64,000 nt of DNA from Phycisphaeraceae bacterium (lineage in GTDB: Bacteria; Planctomycetota; Phycisphaerae; Phycisphaerales; UBA1924): assembly GCA_026126305.1 (NCBI GenBank), contig JAHCJI010000008.1, positions 1 through 64,000 of the forward strand, written 5' to 3'. Every line of letters starts with the position of its first letter. Position 1 is the stretch's first letter. The translations under genes and the position numbers were made by a program. Positions 8,760 to 16,139 of the stretch are shown piece after piece. Under the pieces are notes generated by a model, which saw nothing but the letters and a program-made list of their open reading frames with translations, was not told the origin of the DNA and did not search any database.

Positions 8760-9899
8760 TCAATACCAAGGCGTGAAGGGCAGGATGATCGAGACGGCGA
8801 TGAGGAGGATGATGATCCACTCGAGGGTTTCCAGCCGTCGCGTGCTGGCCAGGCCTTCCATCTTGTCGTAGAGGTTGTCGGTGGCCTGGAGTTTGCGCTG
8901 CACGCTGGCCTCCCAAGCGGGAAGGTCGAGGCGGCTGGCGGTGAGGCGGTACAGCCGGGCGAGGTACTGGTTGCCCATGATCTTGATGGCGTTGTTGACA
9001 CCCTCGAACATCACGGCGGCATCGGTCTGGGCGGTGGCGACACGCCCCAGGATGCGGCTGGTGGCGATGCCCGGCCATACCCTCCGGCGTGCCAGAACCG
9101 CCAGGGTCTCGTCGGCGTGGTCGAGGATCGCGTCCAATTCCTGATCCAGCACGCGCAGTTCCAGGAGTTCGACGTTGGCGTGCTGGAGCACGGCGATCAC
9201 GTCCTGCGGCTGGCGGTCAAAGAGCACCGCAGCGTTCCAGTCAATGATGGCAAGGTCCCGATCGGTGTAGGCAATCCGTGATCCAAGCGTACGGTCGGCC
9301 TGCTGAGACGACACGGGTGTCTGTTCGGCTTCGAGCGCCATGGCCAGCAGTTCGCGGTGGTCTTGCGCGATCGACTCGGGGGACTGGTCTTGCGGCCAGC
9401 CCTCGATGGACAGCACGGTGTAATCCTCGTAAGCCTGGTGCAGGGCTGGACGCTCGACCGCGGGGCGGATCAGGTCGAGGATGCTTTGCAGGTGTTCGCG
9501 GGCGTCGGCTACCAAGTCCGAGTGCTCATGCAAGGCGCACGACAGGGCGGGCAGGTGTTCGAGCGTGGCAGGGAGCGGCGTTCGATAGGTCAGCAGGGCG
9601 GCCCCAAAGTCGAAAAGGAGCAATTCGATGCTCGCATCGGTGCTCAGACCCAAATCGGCAGGGCCCACGGGCAGCGGCTTGCCGCCCAGGACCAGCAGGA
9701 GCGGCGGCGGGCTGTAGTCGAACCAGACCGGTGCCGGCCGGCGAGCTCGGACAACGCGCCGACGGGTGGCCTCACGCACCAGCGGTTCGGCCTTGTCCAG
9801 GTCGAGTTGGAAGCCGATGTCAAAGGCCAGCATGGTCCAAGCCGAGCCATGGACCTGTGGGGTCTTCGAGGGTTGTTTGGCTGGTTCAGGATCGTGCAT
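8760..9899 (-). CDS. DUF155/RMD1-like protein with C-terminal membrane helix
   Basis: Protein of 379 aa. The layout is that of the RMD1/YagE (DUF155) family: an N-terminal alpha/beta part with 'ASIELLLFDFGAALLTY', then long helices, and a C-terminal 'RRLETLEWIIILLIAVSIIL' segment that is the single membrane anchor. Yeast RMD1 and human RMND1 are mitochondrial inner-membrane proteins needed for translation there; the role of bacterial members is unknown. The gene is divergent from the peptidase/amidoligase operon, with 116 bp between the starts, so the shared intergenic region may regulate both. Confidence 0.6.
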   Translation of the reverse strand: MHDPEPAKQPSKTPQVHGSAWTMLAFDIGFQLDLDKAEPLVREATRRRVVRARRPAPVWFDYSPPPLLLVLGGKPLPVGPADLGLSTDASIELLLFDFGAALLTYRTPLPATLEHLPALSCALHEHSDLVADAREHLQSILDLIRPAVERPALHQAYEDYTVLSIEGWPQDQSPESIAQDHRELLAMALEAEQTPVSSQQADRTLGSRIAYTDRDLAIIDWNAAVLFDRQPQDVIAVLQHANVELLELRVLDQELDAILDHADETLAVLARRRVWPGIATSRILGRVATAQTDAAVMFEGVNNAIKIMGNQYLARLYRLTASRLDLPAWEASVQRKLQATDNLYDKMEGLASTRRLETLEWIIILLIAVSIILPFTPWY

Positions 9900-10015: not shown

Positions 10016-10825
10016 GTGGAACCAAGCACATCTGACAATGGGTCTTCGATGGCGTCTCGCCTGCTGGATATCGATATCCTACCCCAGCCCGACGATGAGA
10101 GTTGCGGGCCGACCTGCCTGCACGCGGTGTATCGGTTTTGGGGCGATCGCCGGCCGTTAGGGACGGTGATCGAATCGGTGCGTTCGCTCAATGCCCATGG
10201 GGCCGGCCGGGGCACGCTGGCGGTGATGCTTGGCGTCCATGCGCTCTCGGCGGGGTACCGGGCGTCGCTGTTCACGTTCAACCTGCAAATGTTCGATCCG
10301 ACGTGGTTCGATGCCGATGGATCTTCGGATCCGATGATGCTTCGGAGCAAGTTGGAATCGCAGATGTCCGTCAAGAGCCCCAAGGACCCACGTTTTCCGG
10401 TGGCCACCGAGTCGTACCGCGAGTTTCTGGATCTCGGCGGTCGCATGCACTTGTGCGACCTGAGCAGTGAGTTGATCTCTGGCTTCATCAGCCAGGGGCG
10501 TCCGGTGCTGACGGGCCTGAGCGCGACGTATCTGTACCGCTGCGCCAGGGAGTTTGGACCGAACGACGACTACGACGACGTGCGCGGCGAACCATCGGGG
10601 CACTTCGTGGTCTTGCACGGCTACGACGCTCTCGCCCGGAAGGTGCGCGTGGCCGATCCATTGGCCGACAACCCGGGCTTTGAGGCCCAGAGTTACGACG
10701 TGCCACTGGCACGCCTTGTGCCCGCGATCATCCTGGGCGTTTTAACGTATGACGGTAACCTGCTGGTGATCGAGCCGGCGTCCTCGCCTGCACCCCTAAC
10801 GGAGCCGACCCCTCAACTGCCATGA
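10016..10825 (+). CDS. C39-like (papain-fold) cysteine peptidase of the amidoligase operon
   Basis: Protein of 269 aa, with no signal peptide visible. The catalytic cysteine is in 'DDESCGPTCLHAVYRFWG', the histidine in 'SGHFVVLHGYD' and an aspartate follows in 'VRVADPLAD', the order of C39-like peptidases. The GTG at 10016 is chosen because GAGG lies just upstream; an ATG at 10049 is the alternative. The gene is first in a run of four genes joined by overlaps, followed by an ATP-grasp ligase. It might cleave or transfer the peptide made by the ligases, or trim a protein substrate. There is no transporter domain of the bacteriocin-exporter type. Confidence 0.8.
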   Translation: MEPSTSDNGSSMASRLLDIDILPQPDDESCGPTCLHAVYRFWGDRRPLGTVIESVRSLNAHGAGRGTLAVMLGVHALSAGYRASLFTFNLQMFDPTWFDADGSSDPMMLRSKLESQMSVKSPKDPRFPVATESYREFLDLGGRMHLCDLSSELISGFISQGRPVLTGLSATYLYRCAREFGPNDDYDDVRGEPSGHFVVLHGYDALARKVRVADPLADNPGFEAQSYDVPLARLVPAIILGVLTYDGNLLVIEPASSPAPLTEPTPQLP

Positions 10826-12270
10826 AACCCCTGCTCATCGTGGATTCGCCAAAGCGTTTTCCCATGGACGTGCCCGGGGCGGAGACCGTCTCGGCGTACA
10901 AGTATCTGACCGATCCGCAGTTTGCCCATGGGAAGGGGCGCAAGGTCTTCAACCTGTGCCGCAGCTTGCGATACCAGGCCCAGGGGTACTACGTGTCGCT
11001 GCTGGCCGAGGCCCGGGGGCACCGTTGCCTGCCGTCGGTGTCGGCGATCCAGGACATCCGCCTGGCACCGGTGGTGCGGCTGACCAGCGAGGACCTGGAC
11101 GAGTTAATCCAGCAAAGCCTCAAGCGGATCAAGAGCGAGGAGTTCGAGCTGAGCGTGTACTTTGGCCACAACACGGCCGAGGGTCACGACAAGCTGTCGC
11201 TGGCGTTGTTCAACGCCTTTCCCGCGCCGCTGCTTCGGGCGCGCTTCGAGCACGAGGGCCGGTGGCGGCTGGCGTCGGTGCGGGTGATCGGGCTGGCCGA
11301 GGTGCCCGAGAGCCACCGGGCGTTCGTGGTGAAGCAGGCCGAGCGGTACCTTCGTCGCACGCCCCGCAAGGCCAAGGAAGCGCCCCCGGCGCGTTTCGAC
11401 CTGGCGATCCTGCACAACCCCGAGGACAAGATGGCGCCCAGCAACAAGAAGGCGCTGGCGCGTTTTGTCGAGGCGGGCGAGCAGACGGGCATCCGGTGCG
11501 AGTTGATCGAGAAGCACGACGCGGGACGCATCGCCGAGTTCGACGCGCTGTTCATCCGCGAGACGACGGCCGTCAACCACCATACGTATCGTATCGCACG
11601 GCGTGCCGCGGCCGAGGGCATGATCGTGATCGATGACCCGCAATCGATCGTGCGGTGTACGAACAAGGTGTTCCTGGCCGAGACGCTCAGCCGGGCAAAG
11701 TTGCTTGCGCCGCGGACGCTGGTGCTGGCTCGCGAGAACGCGGTGGAGGGGCTGCGTTCGCTGGGCTTCCCGTGCGTGCTCAAGCAGCCCGACAGTTCGT
11801 TTTCGGTTGGCGTTTCGCGGGTAGACAGCGAGGACGGGCTCGAGGCCGTGCTCGACACCCAGTTCGAGCACTCGGACCTGATCGTGGCCCAGGAGTACCT
11901 GCCCACGGATTTTGACTGGCGCATCGGCGTGCTGGCGGGCCGCCCGCTCTTTGCCTGCCGATACGGGATGGCGCCCGGGCACTGGCAGATCGTGAATCAC
12001 CGCGACGGGGGCGAAGATAAATACGGCAATTTTGATTCGATGCGCGTCGAGGACGCGCCCAAGGACGTGGTGAAGCTGGCCGTCAAGGCCGCCGCTTTGA
12101 TGGGTAAGGGGCTCTACGGCGTGGACCTGAAGGTCGTGCGGGGCAAGCCCATGGTGATCGAAGTGAACGACAACCCAAACATCGACGCGGGCGTGGAAGA
12201 CAGCGTCTTGGGCATGGAACTGTACCGACGCATCATGCAGCACTTCTTCTGGGAACTCGAGGCCCGATGA
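10822..12270 (+). CDS. RLAN-type RimK-family ATP-grasp ligase
   Basis: Protein of 482 aa. The first ~190 residues match the extra N-terminal domain (RLAN) found ahead of some RimK-like ligases ('KKLIVDS'-type start 'MKPLLIVDSPKRFP', 'YFGHNTAEGHDKLSLALFN'). The C-terminal ~290 residues form an ATP-grasp module: 'VLKQPDSSFSVGVSRV', 'DLIVAQEYLPTDFDWRIGV' and the metal-binding 'MVIEVNDNPNIDAGVED'. Such enzymes join a carboxylate to an amine at the cost of ATP, often glutamate to a peptide end. The substrate here is unknown. ATGA overlaps occur at both ends of the gene. Confidence 0.88.
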   Translation: MKPLLIVDSPKRFPMDVPGAETVSAYKYLTDPQFAHGKGRKVFNLCRSLRYQAQGYYVSLLAEARGHRCLPSVSAIQDIRLAPVVRLTSEDLDELIQQSLKRIKSEEFELSVYFGHNTAEGHDKLSLALFNAFPAPLLRARFEHEGRWRLASVRVIGLAEVPESHRAFVVKQAERYLRRTPRKAKEAPPARFDLAILHNPEDKMAPSNKKALARFVEAGEQTGIRCELIEKHDAGRIAEFDALFIRETTAVNHHTYRIARRAAAEGMIVIDDPQSIVRCTNKVFLAETLSRAKLLAPRTLVLARENAVEGLRSLGFPCVLKQPDSSFSVGVSRVDSEDGLEAVLDTQFEHSDLIVAQEYLPTDFDWRIGVLAGRPLFACRYGMAPGHWQIVNHRDGGEDKYGNFDSMRVEDAPKDVVKLAVKAAALMGKGLYGVDLKVVRGKPMVIEVNDNPNIDAGVEDSVLGMELYRRIMQHFFWELEAR

Positions 12271-13532
12271 GCGAACCCGCAGCCAACTGGAGCAATCCCA
12301 TCGGCCTGTTCGGTGCCTATGGCGTCGAGCTGGAGTACATGATCGTCGACGCCGACACTCTGGACGTGCGGCCCGTGGCCGATGCGTTGTTCCGTGCGAT
12401 GAAGCGCAACACCGAGGAAGTCGGCGAGGTGGAGCCCGACGGGCCCGACGGCGTGGTGAGTTGGTCCAACGAGTTGGTCCTGCACGTGCTGGAACTCAAG
12501 ACGCAGCGTCCCGCGTCAACGCTCGACGGGCTGGCAGGGCACTTCCAGCGGCATGTGCGACTGGCCAACGAGGCGTTGTCGGGCATGGGCTGCAAACTGC
12601 TGCCCACGGGCGCACACCCCTGGATGGACCCGCTGCGCGAGAGCAGGCTCTGGCCCCACGAATATACCGAGGTGTACAAGGCCTACGACGCCATCTTCAA
12701 CTGCCAGGGGCACGGGTGGAGCAACCTCCAGAGCACGCACCTGAACCTGCCCTTCGGCAACGACGAGGAGTTCGGGCGGCTGCACGCGGCCCTGCGCCTG
12801 GTGCTCCCGCTGGTGCCGGCCATCGCGGCCAGTTCCCCGGTGATCGAGGGGCGATGGAGCCCCGTAGCCGACCAGCGTCTGGAGTTTTACCGCAACAATT
12901 CTAAACGCGTACCGCTGATGGCCGCCCGGGTCATCCCCGAGGCGGTGTTCACGCGGGCGGGCTATGAGCGGGAGATCCTCGGGGCGCTCTACGACCAACT
13001 AGCGCCGCTTGATCCCGCATCGGTGCTGCGGCGTGAGTTCGCCAACGCCCGCGGCGCCATCGCACGTTTCGATCGCGGTGCTATCGAGCTGCGGCTGCTG
13101 GACATCCAGGAATGCCCCGCCGCCGACATCGCCGTCGTGCGGCTGGTCAGCGAACTGGTGCGGGCCCACGTGCAGGAGCGATGGATATCGTACGAGCAGC
13201 AACGGGCCATCGCCGTCGAGCCCCTGCACGAGGTATTGCTCGAGTGCATCCGTACCGCCGAGCAGACTCGCATCCGCGAGCGTGCGGTGCTCGACGCGTA
13301 CGGGATCAAGGCCTGGATGCTCTGGGCCGGAGACCTGTGGAAGCAACTGGCCGAGCAGGTGATGCCCGCGGGCCACGAGGACACGGCGGTGATGGCGCGA
13401 TTGCTCGATGCCGGCAGCCTTTCCTCGCGCATCACGCGCGGCATCAAGCGTTACCCGACACGATCGCAGTTGCGCGATATCTATGGCGAACTGGCGGAGT
13501 GCCTGTCGCAAGGGACGCTCTTCCGTGCGTGA
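12267..13532 (+). CDS. GCS2-type glutamate-cysteine ligase-like (carboxylate-amine ligase)
   Basis: Protein of 421 aa of the GCS2/EgtA-YbdK superfamily (COG2170-like). Family signatures are 'GAYGVELEYMIVDADTLDV', 'SNELVLHVLELKT', 'GAHPWMDP', 'YDAIFNCQGHGWSNLQSTH' and 'AIELRLLDIQECPAADIAVV'. These enzymes activate a gamma- or alpha-carboxylate with ATP and join it to an amine. Nothing shows that cysteine is the acceptor. The gene lies between the RimK-like ligase and an N-formylglutamate amidohydrolase, overlapping both (4 and 8 bp), so it almost certainly works with them rather than in glutathione synthesis. Confidence 0.88.
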   Translation: MSEPAANWSNPIGLFGAYGVELEYMIVDADTLDVRPVADALFRAMKRNTEEVGEVEPDGPDGVVSWSNELVLHVLELKTQRPASTLDGLAGHFQRHVRLANEALSGMGCKLLPTGAHPWMDPLRESRLWPHEYTEVYKAYDAIFNCQGHGWSNLQSTHLNLPFGNDEEFGRLHAALRLVLPLVPAIAASSPVIEGRWSPVADQRLEFYRNNSKRVPLMAARVIPEAVFTRAGYEREILGALYDQLAPLDPASVLRREFANARGAIARFDRGAIELRLLDIQECPAADIAVVRLVSELVRAHVQERWISYEQQRAIAVEPLHEVLLECIRTAEQTRIRERAVLDAYGIKAWMLWAGDLWKQLAEQVMPAGHEDTAVMARLLDAGSLSSRITRGIKRYPTRSQLRDIYGELAECLSQGTLFRA

Positions 13533-14241
13533 GGCCGCGTGGCGGCCCGACGTGGTGCTGCTCTCGTGCGAGCACGGTGGCAACGAGGTGCCGCCCGCGT
13601 ACGCGTCCTTGTTCGATGGTGCCGACGACATGCTGGCCAGCCATCGCGGATGGGACATCGGCGCGCTGGGCGTGGCGCGGCGTTTCGCGGAGACGACGAG
13701 CTTCCCCCTCATCGCATGCACGTTCACGAGGCTGCTGGTCGAGCCCAACCGCTCGCCGGACTCAGGAAACCTCTTCAGCGTCTACACGCGAGACCTGAGC
13801 GAGCAGGACAAGGCCGCGATCAGGCATGGCTATTACGACCGCCATCGCGGCAGCGTTGAACGGACCGTGGCCGACGCCGTGGCTGCGGGCCGCCGCGTGC
13901 TGCACGTTGGCGTCCACTCGTGTACCGATGTCCTCGACGGGCGCGTGCGCGAATTGGAGGTCTCGCTGCTGTTCGACCCAGACCGCCTGGCCGAGCGCGA
14001 GGTGTGCCAGTCCTGGACCGGCGAGCTGACCCGCCTGGAGCCCACGTGGCGGCTGCCCTTCAACGAACCGTACAAGGGCACCGACGACGGGCTGACCACC
14101 TGGCTGCGAAACCGCCTTCCCGAGGACCGCTACGCGGGGGTGGAGGTCGAGGTCCGCCAGGGGCTGATCCTCGAGCCGTCGGCCCAGTGGCACGTAGGCG
14201 GGTTGCTGGCCCGGGCCCTGACCGCTGTGCTGGAGGCGTAG
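13525..14241 (+). CDS. N-formylglutamate amidohydrolase family protein
   Basis: Protein of 238 aa. Start GTG at 13525, inside the previous gene's last codons (GTGCGTGA). Family motifs are 'LLSCEHGGNEVPP', 'SHRGWDIGALGVARRFA', 'RLLVEPNRSPD' and 'VLHVGVHSCTDV', including the histidines expected to hold zinc. Characterised members split N-formylglutamate in histidine degradation, but no hut gene is nearby. In this context it more likely hydrolyses an N-acyl or isopeptide bond in whatever the two ligases make. Confidence 0.85.
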   Translation: MREAAWRPDVVLLSCEHGGNEVPPAYASLFDGADDMLASHRGWDIGALGVARRFAETTSFPLIACTFTRLLVEPNRSPDSGNLFSVYTRDLSEQDKAAIRHGYYDRHRGSVERTVADAVAAGRRVLHVGVHSCTDVLDGRVRELEVSLLFDPDRLAEREVCQSWTGELTRLEPTWRLPFNEPYKGTDDGLTTWLRNRLPEDRYAGVEVEVRQGLILEPSAQWHVGGLLARALTAVLEA

Positions 14242-14249
14242 ACTGCGCC

Positions 14250-14705
14250 ATGATCCACCCCGCCCCAACCACCCCGCTCGCCCCAGGTCTGGCCCGGGGC
14301 GTGCTCGTCGAGTCCGTGCCCGCCACGGCCACGCGTCTCGCGTATGTCAAACTGAGTTTTGCCAACACCAGTTACGTCATGCACCTGCTGCCAACCTTGC
14401 CCATCAAGGCCGAGCCGGGCGACAAGGTCTTTGGCACGATCCACGCCCGGGCCCGGCGGGTGGACGTGGTACCCAGCGGAGGCAAGTACGTCGAGCCGGT
14501 GATAGGCCGGCCGCGGCGTGTGCAGGGGCGTGTGATCGGGCATGTGGAAGTTCCCGGTGGAGACCAACTCGTGATCGACGCGGGGGTGCCCATGCACTTC
14601 ACGCTGGTTGACGCCCGCCAGCACGCGCGGGACTTTGCCGTGGGAGACCTGGTAAGTTTTGACGTGCTCGACGGCGCGTGCTTCTCGCCCAAGGCCGACG
14701 GGTGA
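14250..14705 (+). CDS. Uncharacterised 151-aa protein, OB-like
   Basis: I do not recognise a named family. The start is ATG at 14250, 8 bases after the amidohydrolase stop, so it is probably co-transcribed. It has no membrane segment. It is beta-rich, with 'GDKVFGTIHARARRVDVV', 'VQGRVIGHVEVPGGDQLV' and 'FAVGDLVSFDVLDGACF', which looks like two small barrel modules of OB type. The gene ends 3 bases before the permease gene. Whether it belongs functionally to the amidoligase system or to the transporter cannot be decided here. Confidence 0.65.
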   Translation: MIHPAPTTPLAPGLARGVLVESVPATATRLAYVKLSFANTSYVMHLLPTLPIKAEPGDKVFGTIHARARRVDVVPSGGKYVEPVIGRPRRVQGRVIGHVEVPGGDQLVIDAGVPMHFTLVDARQHARDFAVGDLVSFDVLDGACFSPKADG

Positions 14706-14708
14706 ACG

Positions 14709-16139
14709 ATGGCCAGGAAGCCCAAACCCAACGTGCCGCAGACGGCCGTCCCGGCGATGGCCGCCCCGGCGGTCGAGCGTGACAACCCGCTGACGCGTTC
14801 GTGGGCGGGCATGATCGGCATGGGCTTCCTCTCGTGCATGATGCTCGCCTGCCTGGTGAGCCTGTTCTGGACGCTGCGCCCCGCGCCGGCGACGTACCCG
14901 GGCGTCAGCGAGGGCTCGGGCGTGCCGCGCTACAACGCCGGCAGCGCCGAGTTTGGCCGCCTGCCGCCCTGGTGGGCCGTGGGCGAGCAGAGCGCCCTGC
15001 GGCTGAACGCCCTGGTGCCCGAGGAGGCCGCCCAGGCCGTCGCCCAGCGATTCGCGATGACCGAGGAAGCGGCCCGCCTGGCCAGCGACGGCGAGGTCGC
15101 CCGCGCGATGCGCGAGCAATGGGTCTATCGCGGCAACCGGTTGGCACTGCTGCTGGGCACCGACGTGCTGGGGCGCAGCCTGCTCTACCGCGTGCTCACC
15201 GGCGGGGGCATCTCTTTGGGCATCGGCCTCTCGGCCGCGTTCATCAGCGTGCTCATCGGCACGCTCTACGGGGCCGTCGCCGGGTACGCCGGCGGGAAGA
15301 CCGACGCGGCGATGATGCGCGTGGTTGACGTGCTGTTCGGCCTTCCTTACATCCTGCTGGTCGTGCTGCTGGCGGTGGCCAGCGACGCGGCGCTCGAAGA
15401 GTACGTCAACCGGCAGAATGCACGCGAGTCGTGGGAACGCGGCGTGATCTCGGCCATCCTGCAAGAGAGCGGCATCGAGGTCGACGACACCGCCCGCCGG
15501 CTGTGGCGTGCCCAGGAGTTTGACCCAAGCGGCACGCTGATAGCGTTCCCGGTCCGAGAGGATATCGCCAGGGCCCGAGAGCGTGCGATCGTGGCGGGCG
15601 CGACGAGTGATGCGGCCTTGCTCAACGGCCGCGTCTTGAACGCCATGGCCTTGGCCGCTCGCCCGCCGCGGAGCCTCCAGGAATCCACGCGCCTGGTGCT
15701 CGACCTGGTCGTGCTGCTGGTGGCCATCGGCGGGGTGAGCTGGCTGACTATGTCGCGCGTGATCCGCGGTCAGGTGCTCAGCCTCAAGAACCTGCCGTTC
15801 ATCGAGGCCGCCCGCAGCGCCGGAGCCCCCACGCGGCGCATCTTCGCGATACACCTGCTGCCAAATCTGATGGGCCCGATCATCGTCTACGCCACGCTCA
15901 CCGTGCCGCTGGCGATCTTGCAGGAGTCCTTCCTGAGCTTCCTTGGCATCGGCGTGAAGCCCCCGCTGCCCAGTTGGGGCAACCTGGCCGCCGACGGGCT
16001 CAACGAATTGAATCCCTATCAGAGCCAGTGGTGGCTGATCCTCTTCCCCTGCCTGTTGCTGGGCGCGACGCTGCTGGCGCTCAACTTTGTGGGCGAGGGC
16101 CTGCGTGAGGCGTTCGACCCCAAGCGCGGCCGCCGCTAG
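14709..16139 (+). CDS. OppC/DppC-like ABC transporter permease with large insertion
   Basis: Membrane permease of 476 aa for a peptide/nickel-type ABC importer. Recognisable parts: N-terminal helix (about 30-55), 'LLGTDVLGRSLLYRVL' before the transmembrane core, the EAA loop 'FIEAARSAGAPTRRIFAIHLLPN' region, and 'ESFLSFLGIGVKPPLPSWGN' typical of OppC. About 125 residues (roughly 225-345), charged and non-membrane, are inserted between the second and third core helices, and another ~75 lie in the first periplasmic loop, so the protein is well over the usual ~300 aa. No partner permease or binding protein lies next to it; an oppF ATPase is at 27769-28683. Confidence 0.85.
   Translation: MARKPKPNVPQTAVPAMAAPAVERDNPLTRSWAGMIGMGFLSCMMLACLVSLFWTLRPAPATYPGVSEGSGVPRYNAGSAEFGRLPPWWAVGEQSALRLNALVPEEAAQAVAQRFAMTEEAARLASDGEVARAMREQWVYRGNRLALLLGTDVLGRSLLYRVLTGGGISLGIGLSAAFISVLIGTLYGAVAGYAGGKTDAAMMRVVDVLFGLPYILLVVLLAVASDAALEEYVNRQNARESWERGVISAILQESGIEVDDTARRLWRAQEFDPSGTLIAFPVREDIARARERAIVAGATSDAALLNGRVLNAMALAARPPRSLQESTRLVLDLVVLLVAIGGVSWLTMSRVIRGQVLSLKNLPFIEAARSAGAPTRRIFAIHLLPNLMGPIIVYATLTVPLAILQESFLSFLGIGVKPPLPSWGNLAADGLNELNPYQSQWWLILFPCLLLGATLLALNFVGEGLREAFDPKRGRR

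Follow-up and report, generated by a model that had tools for sequence, protein, structure and literature searches.

In a survey of amidoligases, Iyer et al. 2009 reportedly defined the RLAN domain and are said to have predicted peptide synthesis for the gene neighbourhoods that combine it with a GNAT/papain-like peptidase and GCS2. We analysed a window of 64,000 nt (the whole stretch of DNA under study, from contig JAHCJI010000008.1 of a Phycisphaeraceae bacterium), in which positions 10016-14241 hold a cassette of four genes for a C39-like peptidase, an RLAN-RimK ATP-grasp ligase, a GCS2-type ligase and an FGase-family amidohydrolase. It falls within the neighbourhood reportedly described in that survey, with RLAN-RimK, a papain-like peptidase and GCS2 encoded in one operon. 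With its stand-alone C39, its GCS2 plus FGase and no GNAT, the cassette is a deeply conserved variant of this predicted, unproven system. The four genes are a real functional unit that is gained and lost together. We consider the chances about evenly balanced that they form a self-contained cytoplasmic cassette, which makes and dismantles a small peptide, probably containing gamma-glutamyl or acidic amino acid residues.

Several characterised systems resemble parts of the cassette. In Pseudomonas, RimK poly-glutamylates S6 and the retropepsin-like protease RimB reverses the reaction (PMC12239564); common to both systems are the RimK-type ATP-grasp fold (Z ~25) and the pairing of a ligase with a hydrolase. 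However, the cassette has an extra RLAN domain, a peptidase of an unrelated type and a second ligase (GCS2), and its RLAN-RimK lies far below the cut-off for S6 ligases. The GCS2 Pfam domain and the GhExE signature, known as the Mg/ATP motif in ligases of the GCS type (PMC2588565), are shared by the cassette GCS2 with YbdK (COG2170) and PafA, but the cassette GCS2 is below all NCBIfam subfamily cut-offs and no Pup-like gene was found at 67 loci. The absence of such a gene was also the argument of the 2008 pupylation analysis for other GCS2-like families (PMC2588565). LysX and ArgX, which go with LysW, are among the closest solved structures to the ATP-grasp part, but no LysW-like carrier is linked to the cassette. 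Alr0975, a primitive phytochelatin synthase that cleaves glutathione, has the papain fold in common with the cassette C39 (Z 15.0, root-mean-square deviation 3.0 over 164 residues), although the identity is 13% and C39 peptidases fit equally, so that its substrate is not implied.

The four genes are arranged as follows.

10016..10825, + strand: C39-like papain-fold cysteine peptidase, 269 amino acids (aa) from GTG; PF13529, 37.4 bits
10822..12270, + strand: RLAN-RimK ATP-grasp ligase, 482 aa, ATG start; PF14401, 160 bits, and PF08443, 31.7 bits
12267..13532, + strand: GCS2-type carboxylate-amine ligase, 421 aa, ATG start; PF04107, 99.2 bits
13525..14241, + strand: FGase-family amidohydrolase, N-formylglutamate-amidohydrolase-like, 238 aa from GTG; PF05013, 76.8 bits

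The reading frames and overlaps agree with those described in an earlier note on this DNA, namely 4 bp between C39 and RLAN-RimK, 4 bp between RLAN-RimK and GCS2, and 8 bp between GCS2 and FGase. The C39-like gene runs from a GTG at 10016 to a TGA stop at 10823-10825; an ATG at 10049 is also a possible start, and the GTG is plausible because two relatives of the same genus retain V-E-Q-P there. All four proteins exceed their curated Pfam cut-offs (Peptidase_C39_2, PF13529, 24 bits; RLAN, PF14401, 25 bits; RimK, PF08443, 21 bits; GCS2, PF04107, 21 bits; FGase, PF05013, 28.9 bits), which backs the names already given to them (C39-like, RLAN-RimK, GCS2-type and N-formylglutamate amidohydrolase family). 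The ligase belongs to the RLAN-RimK class, as both PF14401 and PF08443 are found and the RLAN domain (residues ~27-171) is N-terminal to the RimK-like ATP-grasp part (~192-482). In the host genome, the only genes of PF14401, PF04107 and PF05013 are those of the cassette.

The inheritance of the set was followed in 101 relatives from the genus, family and order of the window, of which 36 had a full RLAN-RimK and 65 did not. The GCS2 subfamily was present in 32 of the 36 RLAN-RimK genomes and in none of the 65 others (Fisher 3e-22), C39 in 31/36 and one other genome (Fisher 1e-19), and FGase in 27/36 and one other genome (Fisher 9e-16), these values ignoring the shared ancestry of the genomes. 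Despite this kinship, the repeated loss of the entire set is informative in itself. All four genes, in the same order and on the same strand with near-zero spacing, were found at 24 of the 35 RLAN loci of the relatives. In two members of the window's own genus (G003 and G005) the site is empty: the four genes and the neighbouring gene at 8760 are missing, and the order of the flanks is kept, with MutY and a PEP-CTERM protein followed by an open reading frame (ORF) of 151 aa and a permease. The two occurrences of C39 and FGase outside the RLAN-RimK genomes are relics. One is a C39 gene alone (G012, L150:6163-6921) and the other an FGase tail alone, of about the last 80 codons (G017, L151:6659-6916), and each adjoins a neighbour of the 8760 type. 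In the phylum, GCS2 of this kind was present in 28 of 149 sampled genomes. The linked four-enzyme unit proposed in the earlier note is thus borne out by conserved order, co-occurrence and joint gain and loss; it would have been called into question by genes lying apart in relatives, and they are linked there.

For a wider scan, one genome per species was used and the best 80 of at least 584 RLAN-RimK relatives were taken, in whose loci C39, RLAN-RimK, GCS2 and FGase were located with profiles built in this analysis. At 63 of these 80 loci, C39, RLAN-RimK and GCS2 follow each other in this order on one strand, and FGase comes as the fourth gene at 39. The distances between the genes are typically a few bases, and the names given by the submitters span 18 phyla. 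An identity of about 50% is maintained in the RLAN-RimK core ligase across bacterial phyla. For 35 complete loci from 10 phyla, the four protein trees are correlated with each other (Mantel r 0.51-0.75 vs a permuted maximum of 0.35); groups are intermixed in the RLAN tree, but bins may themselves be mixed. Culturable carriers of the cassette include Thiobacillus thioparus DSM 505 (L084) and Blastopirellula marina DSM 3645 (L075). The names of metagenome bins may be wrong: one locus labelled Rhizobium sp. (L088) carries a cassette nearly identical to that of T. thioparus and is probably mis-binned or mislabelled. At two other loci the C39 gene is split over two frames (L092:5634-5882 and L099:1533-2184), by a frameshift or an assembly error.

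Residues of catalytic type are close to invariant in all four families. The triad of the C39-like protein (C30, H196, D214) was found in 97/97 sequences, and K282, K321, D435, E447 and N449 of RLAN-RimK, which are the ATP-grasp lysines and metal-type residues, in all of ~116. The RLAN domain has a near-invariant motif of its own (N44, Y51-Q52, Y56-Y57, S59). In GCS2 the GhExE signature reads G19-V-E21-L-E23, with E21 and E23 present in 101/101 sequences, and together with PF04107 it places the protein in the GCS2 superfamily. Its acidic, His and Arg residues are retained in ~102 sequences, with the exceptions of E225 (95/102) and E257 (90/102). E16, H17, H127, H131 and E207 of FGase are invariant in ~68 sequences. 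From these residues, the four enzymes look active. Because of the cross-phylum identity, the near-invariant residues of active-site type and the fixed gene order, the cassette must serve a useful role.

Models were compared with solved structures. The AlphaFold2 (AF2) model of the C39-like protein (predicted local distance difference test score, pLDDT, 81.5) matched 2bu3 (Alr0975) and 3erv (C39-like), each with a Z of 15.0. With its Pfam match, its Cys-His-Asp triad and this fold, it belongs to the C39-like peptidases, and judging from the model it is a papain-fold hydrolase. For the ATP-grasp half of the RLAN-RimK model the best fits were LysX, ArgX and RimK (Z 25-27), which confirms its fold. 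The FGase has a solved relative, 2odf Atu2144 (E 6e-27), and its score and conserved acidic and His residues place it in the N-formylglutamate amidohydrolase family (PF05013).

The cut-offs of the better-known families were widely missed. RLAN-RimK reached 31.5 of 331 bits for NF007764 and 70 of 143.4 bits for TIGR00768, both for RimK-type S6:glutamate ligases, 70 of 275.6 bits for LysX and 29.9 of 272 bits for the glutathione synthase NF003573; the best score of GCS2 against the YbdK/glutamate-cysteine ligase subfamilies (TIGR02050, NF0100xx) was 47.7 of 176.4 bits. By these scores, neither ligase of the cassette belongs to the recognised S6 ligases, LysX, YbdK or the glutathione synthases. 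This bears on the ordinary synthesis of glutathione, gamma-glutamylcysteine or poly-glutamate. A GCS2 followed by an ATP-grasp ligase does resemble GshA followed by GshB, and this GCS2 is the only one in the genome; however, with the YbdK, glutathione synthase and RimK family cut-offs so far away, we regard that explanation as quite improbable. Two further candidates were tried for the cassette as a whole. As a defence system it gave no meaningful match in PADLOC, and as for a phage-borne origin, viral contigs were without a related GCS2 and PHROGs matched only a generic ATP-grasp.

Small partner genes, for a carrier, a tag or a precursor peptide, were looked for as well. Within 1 kb of the cassette at the 67 loci no small carrier or precursor ORF was recurrent, including any LysW-like one, and the small ORFs that did recur were only fragments of cassette genes and neighbours in close relatives. 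The earlier note had suggested as carrier or target the protein encoded just downstream:

14250-14702: ORF of 151 aa, no Pfam match; stays next to the permease and is not part of the cassette

This candidate was ruled out. The protein is restricted to the genus, and outside it only one weak match, on the opposite strand, lies beside a cassette (L062). The ORF belongs with the permease rather than with the cassette, because it is retained at the empty sites of G003 and G005, which lack the whole set. It adjoins the ABC-transporter permease (14250-16139) in every genome of the genus that was examined. A fifth gene travelling with the cassette, which had also been envisaged, was not found either, since no universal one emerged on clustering the neighbours around the best 80 of at least 584 loci.

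The same search weighs on a graspetide-like ribosomal peptide, in which C39 would cleave a leader and RLAN-RimK would cyclise the precursor. A C39-type protease and an ATP-grasp ligase would suit a pathway for ribosomally synthesised and post-translationally modified peptides (RiPPs). However, at the 67 loci no conserved precursor gene was found beside the ATP-grasp gene within 1 kb, the four overlapping ORFs leave no space for a small gene between them, and the C39 protein has no ABC-transporter fusion and is below the cut-off of the bacteriocin-exporter C39 peptidases (PF03412, 13.7 vs 22 bits). We consider this explanation very improbable.

We also find reversible protein tagging unlikely. 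Here a host protein would be extended with amino acids by RLAN-RimK and/or GCS2, and C39 or FGase would remove them. The ATP-grasp part is closest in structure to enzymes that act on protein C termini, RimK with its reversing protease in Pseudomonas is a precedent (PMC12239564), and PafA, the Pup ligase, arose from GCS2-like enzymes (PMC2588565). Against this, at the 67 loci neither a small tag gene of the pupylation kind nor a carrier lies within the cassette or close to it, the 151-aa protein has been eliminated as a candidate, the S6 ligase cut-off is missed by a factor of about ten, and the cassette is found in many phyla with differing proteomes. The earlier note had read the locus as a reversible modification or a biosynthesis/maturation cycle; this stands as a class, two of the families forming amides and two cleaving them, and its tagging version is left with no positive evidence because no carrier- or precursor-like small ORF recurs.

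Small-peptide synthesis and recycling is probably the role of the cassette, rather than tagging. As judged from the families, it would comprise two ATP-dependent amide-bond formations through acyl phosphates and two hydrolases. GCS2 may phosphorylate a side-chain (gamma-type) carboxylate and then couple it to an amine, and RLAN-RimK would make a second amide bond by the acyl-phosphate route of ATP-grasp enzymes, as GshB does after GshA, or LysX and RimK on glutamate. The C39-like enzyme and the FGase, of metal-dependent type, would each cut one specific amide bond and so trim, uncap or recycle the product. The fit of the C39 model to the glutathione-cleaving Alr0975, as good as that to C39 peptidases, was counted in favour of such a peptide cycle.

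Some of these steps would also suit the salvage of amines or acyl amides, in which an amine or amino acid is gamma-glutamylated for uptake or catabolism, following the logic of PuuA/PuuD, and then hydrolysed. GCS2 and FGase are suitable as a ligase and a hydrolase for one small metabolite, and a plasmid of Pseudomonas aeruginosa has an RLAN-RimK gene in the vicinity of genes for a gamma-glutamyltransferase and a Glu/Asp transporter. However, no transporter, oxidase or dehydrogenase is recurrent beside the cassette at the best 80 of at least 584 loci, and salvage would not need a second bond-forming enzyme, which makes it an unlikely explanation.

Several points weigh against the synthesis and recycling of a small peptide. 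Since Alr0975 and the C39 peptidases tie, the papain-like fold does not fix the substrate, and the FGase families include several acyl-amino-acid hydrolases. FGase is missing at 24 of the 63 three-gene loci and may be optional. The 80 loci taken from at least 584 are the closest ones, so that the conservation count is biased to this subfamily. It is possible that a protein target is encoded elsewhere in the host genome. Finally, a literature search for this combination of families returned no describing paper, characterised example, substrate or product.

RLAN-RimK is also found outside the cassette, and its partners there are instructive. Two loci from the same taxonomic order encode GNAT-RLAN-RimK fusions (L064:5536-7563 and L065:6154-8208), with no adjoining C39, GCS2 or FGase. 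In Azospirillum brasilense (L149:4733-7467, in a record without gene annotation), a GNAT-C39 (DUF3335) gene overlaps RLAN-RimK, and its C39 half is homologous to the cassette C39 (hhalign E 5e-6). This pair has in common with the cassette an RLAN-RimK core that adjoins and overlaps a C39-type peptidase, whereas in the cassette the peptidase is without GNAT and the GCS2 and FGase genes are added. Among 115 loci, GNAT relatives were found at 3/13 RLAN loci without GCS2 vs 0/102 with GCS2, although these numbers are small. We infer that a core reaction of RLAN-RimK, often with C39 as its hydrolase, is combined either with GNAT acetylation or with GCS2 plus FGase. Since the RLAN-RimK loci with a GNAT partner are all without GCS2, acetyl capping may be replaced by GCS2, which would add a gamma-glutamyl cap, and FGase, which would remove an N-acyl-type group. 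This can naturally be read as two ways to cap an amino group, with acetyl in one version and with gamma-glutamyl in the other. The P. aeruginosa RLAN-RimK mentioned above (L147:5902-7491) is solitary and is annotated as a RimK family alpha-L-glutamate ligase.

More tentatively, and with the balance tilting against it, we suggest that GCS2 and RLAN-RimK synthesise, and C39 and FGase recycle, a peptide metabolite or cofactor that is widespread among bacteria, with GNAT (acetyl cap) and GCS2/FGase (gamma-glutamyl cap) as interchangeable routes. New in this analysis are the finding that the genes are inherited strictly together, the relics and empty sites of the cassette, the rejection of the 151-aa protein as a candidate, the tie of the C39 fold with a glutathione-cleaving enzyme and the alternation of GNAT with GCS2. 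The cassette is compact and has no carrier gene, and sister species that differ in having it at a given site provide natural controls. Once identified, the product would make sense of hundreds of genes whose present annotations mislead ('ribosomal protein S6 ligase', 'glutamate-cysteine ligase' or 'N-formylglutamate amidohydrolase'), and its identity would also test the peptide-synthesis prediction of 2009.

On the other side of the cassette is the neighbour referred to above:

8760..9899, - strand: protein of 379 aa with a conserved hydrophobic C-terminal segment, no Pfam match; lineage-specific neighbour

A likeness to DUF155/RMND1 (PF02582), seen by eye only, gave no match in 14 homologues or the host genome, and a search of the phylum was blank even for the controls. 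The neighbour was present in 45 of the 101 relatives, that is, in 27/36 genomes with the cassette and 18/65 without it, and is not an obligate partner. The gene is divergent in the window and, in another family (L048, L050, L051, L053 and L054), it is co-directional just upstream of C39.

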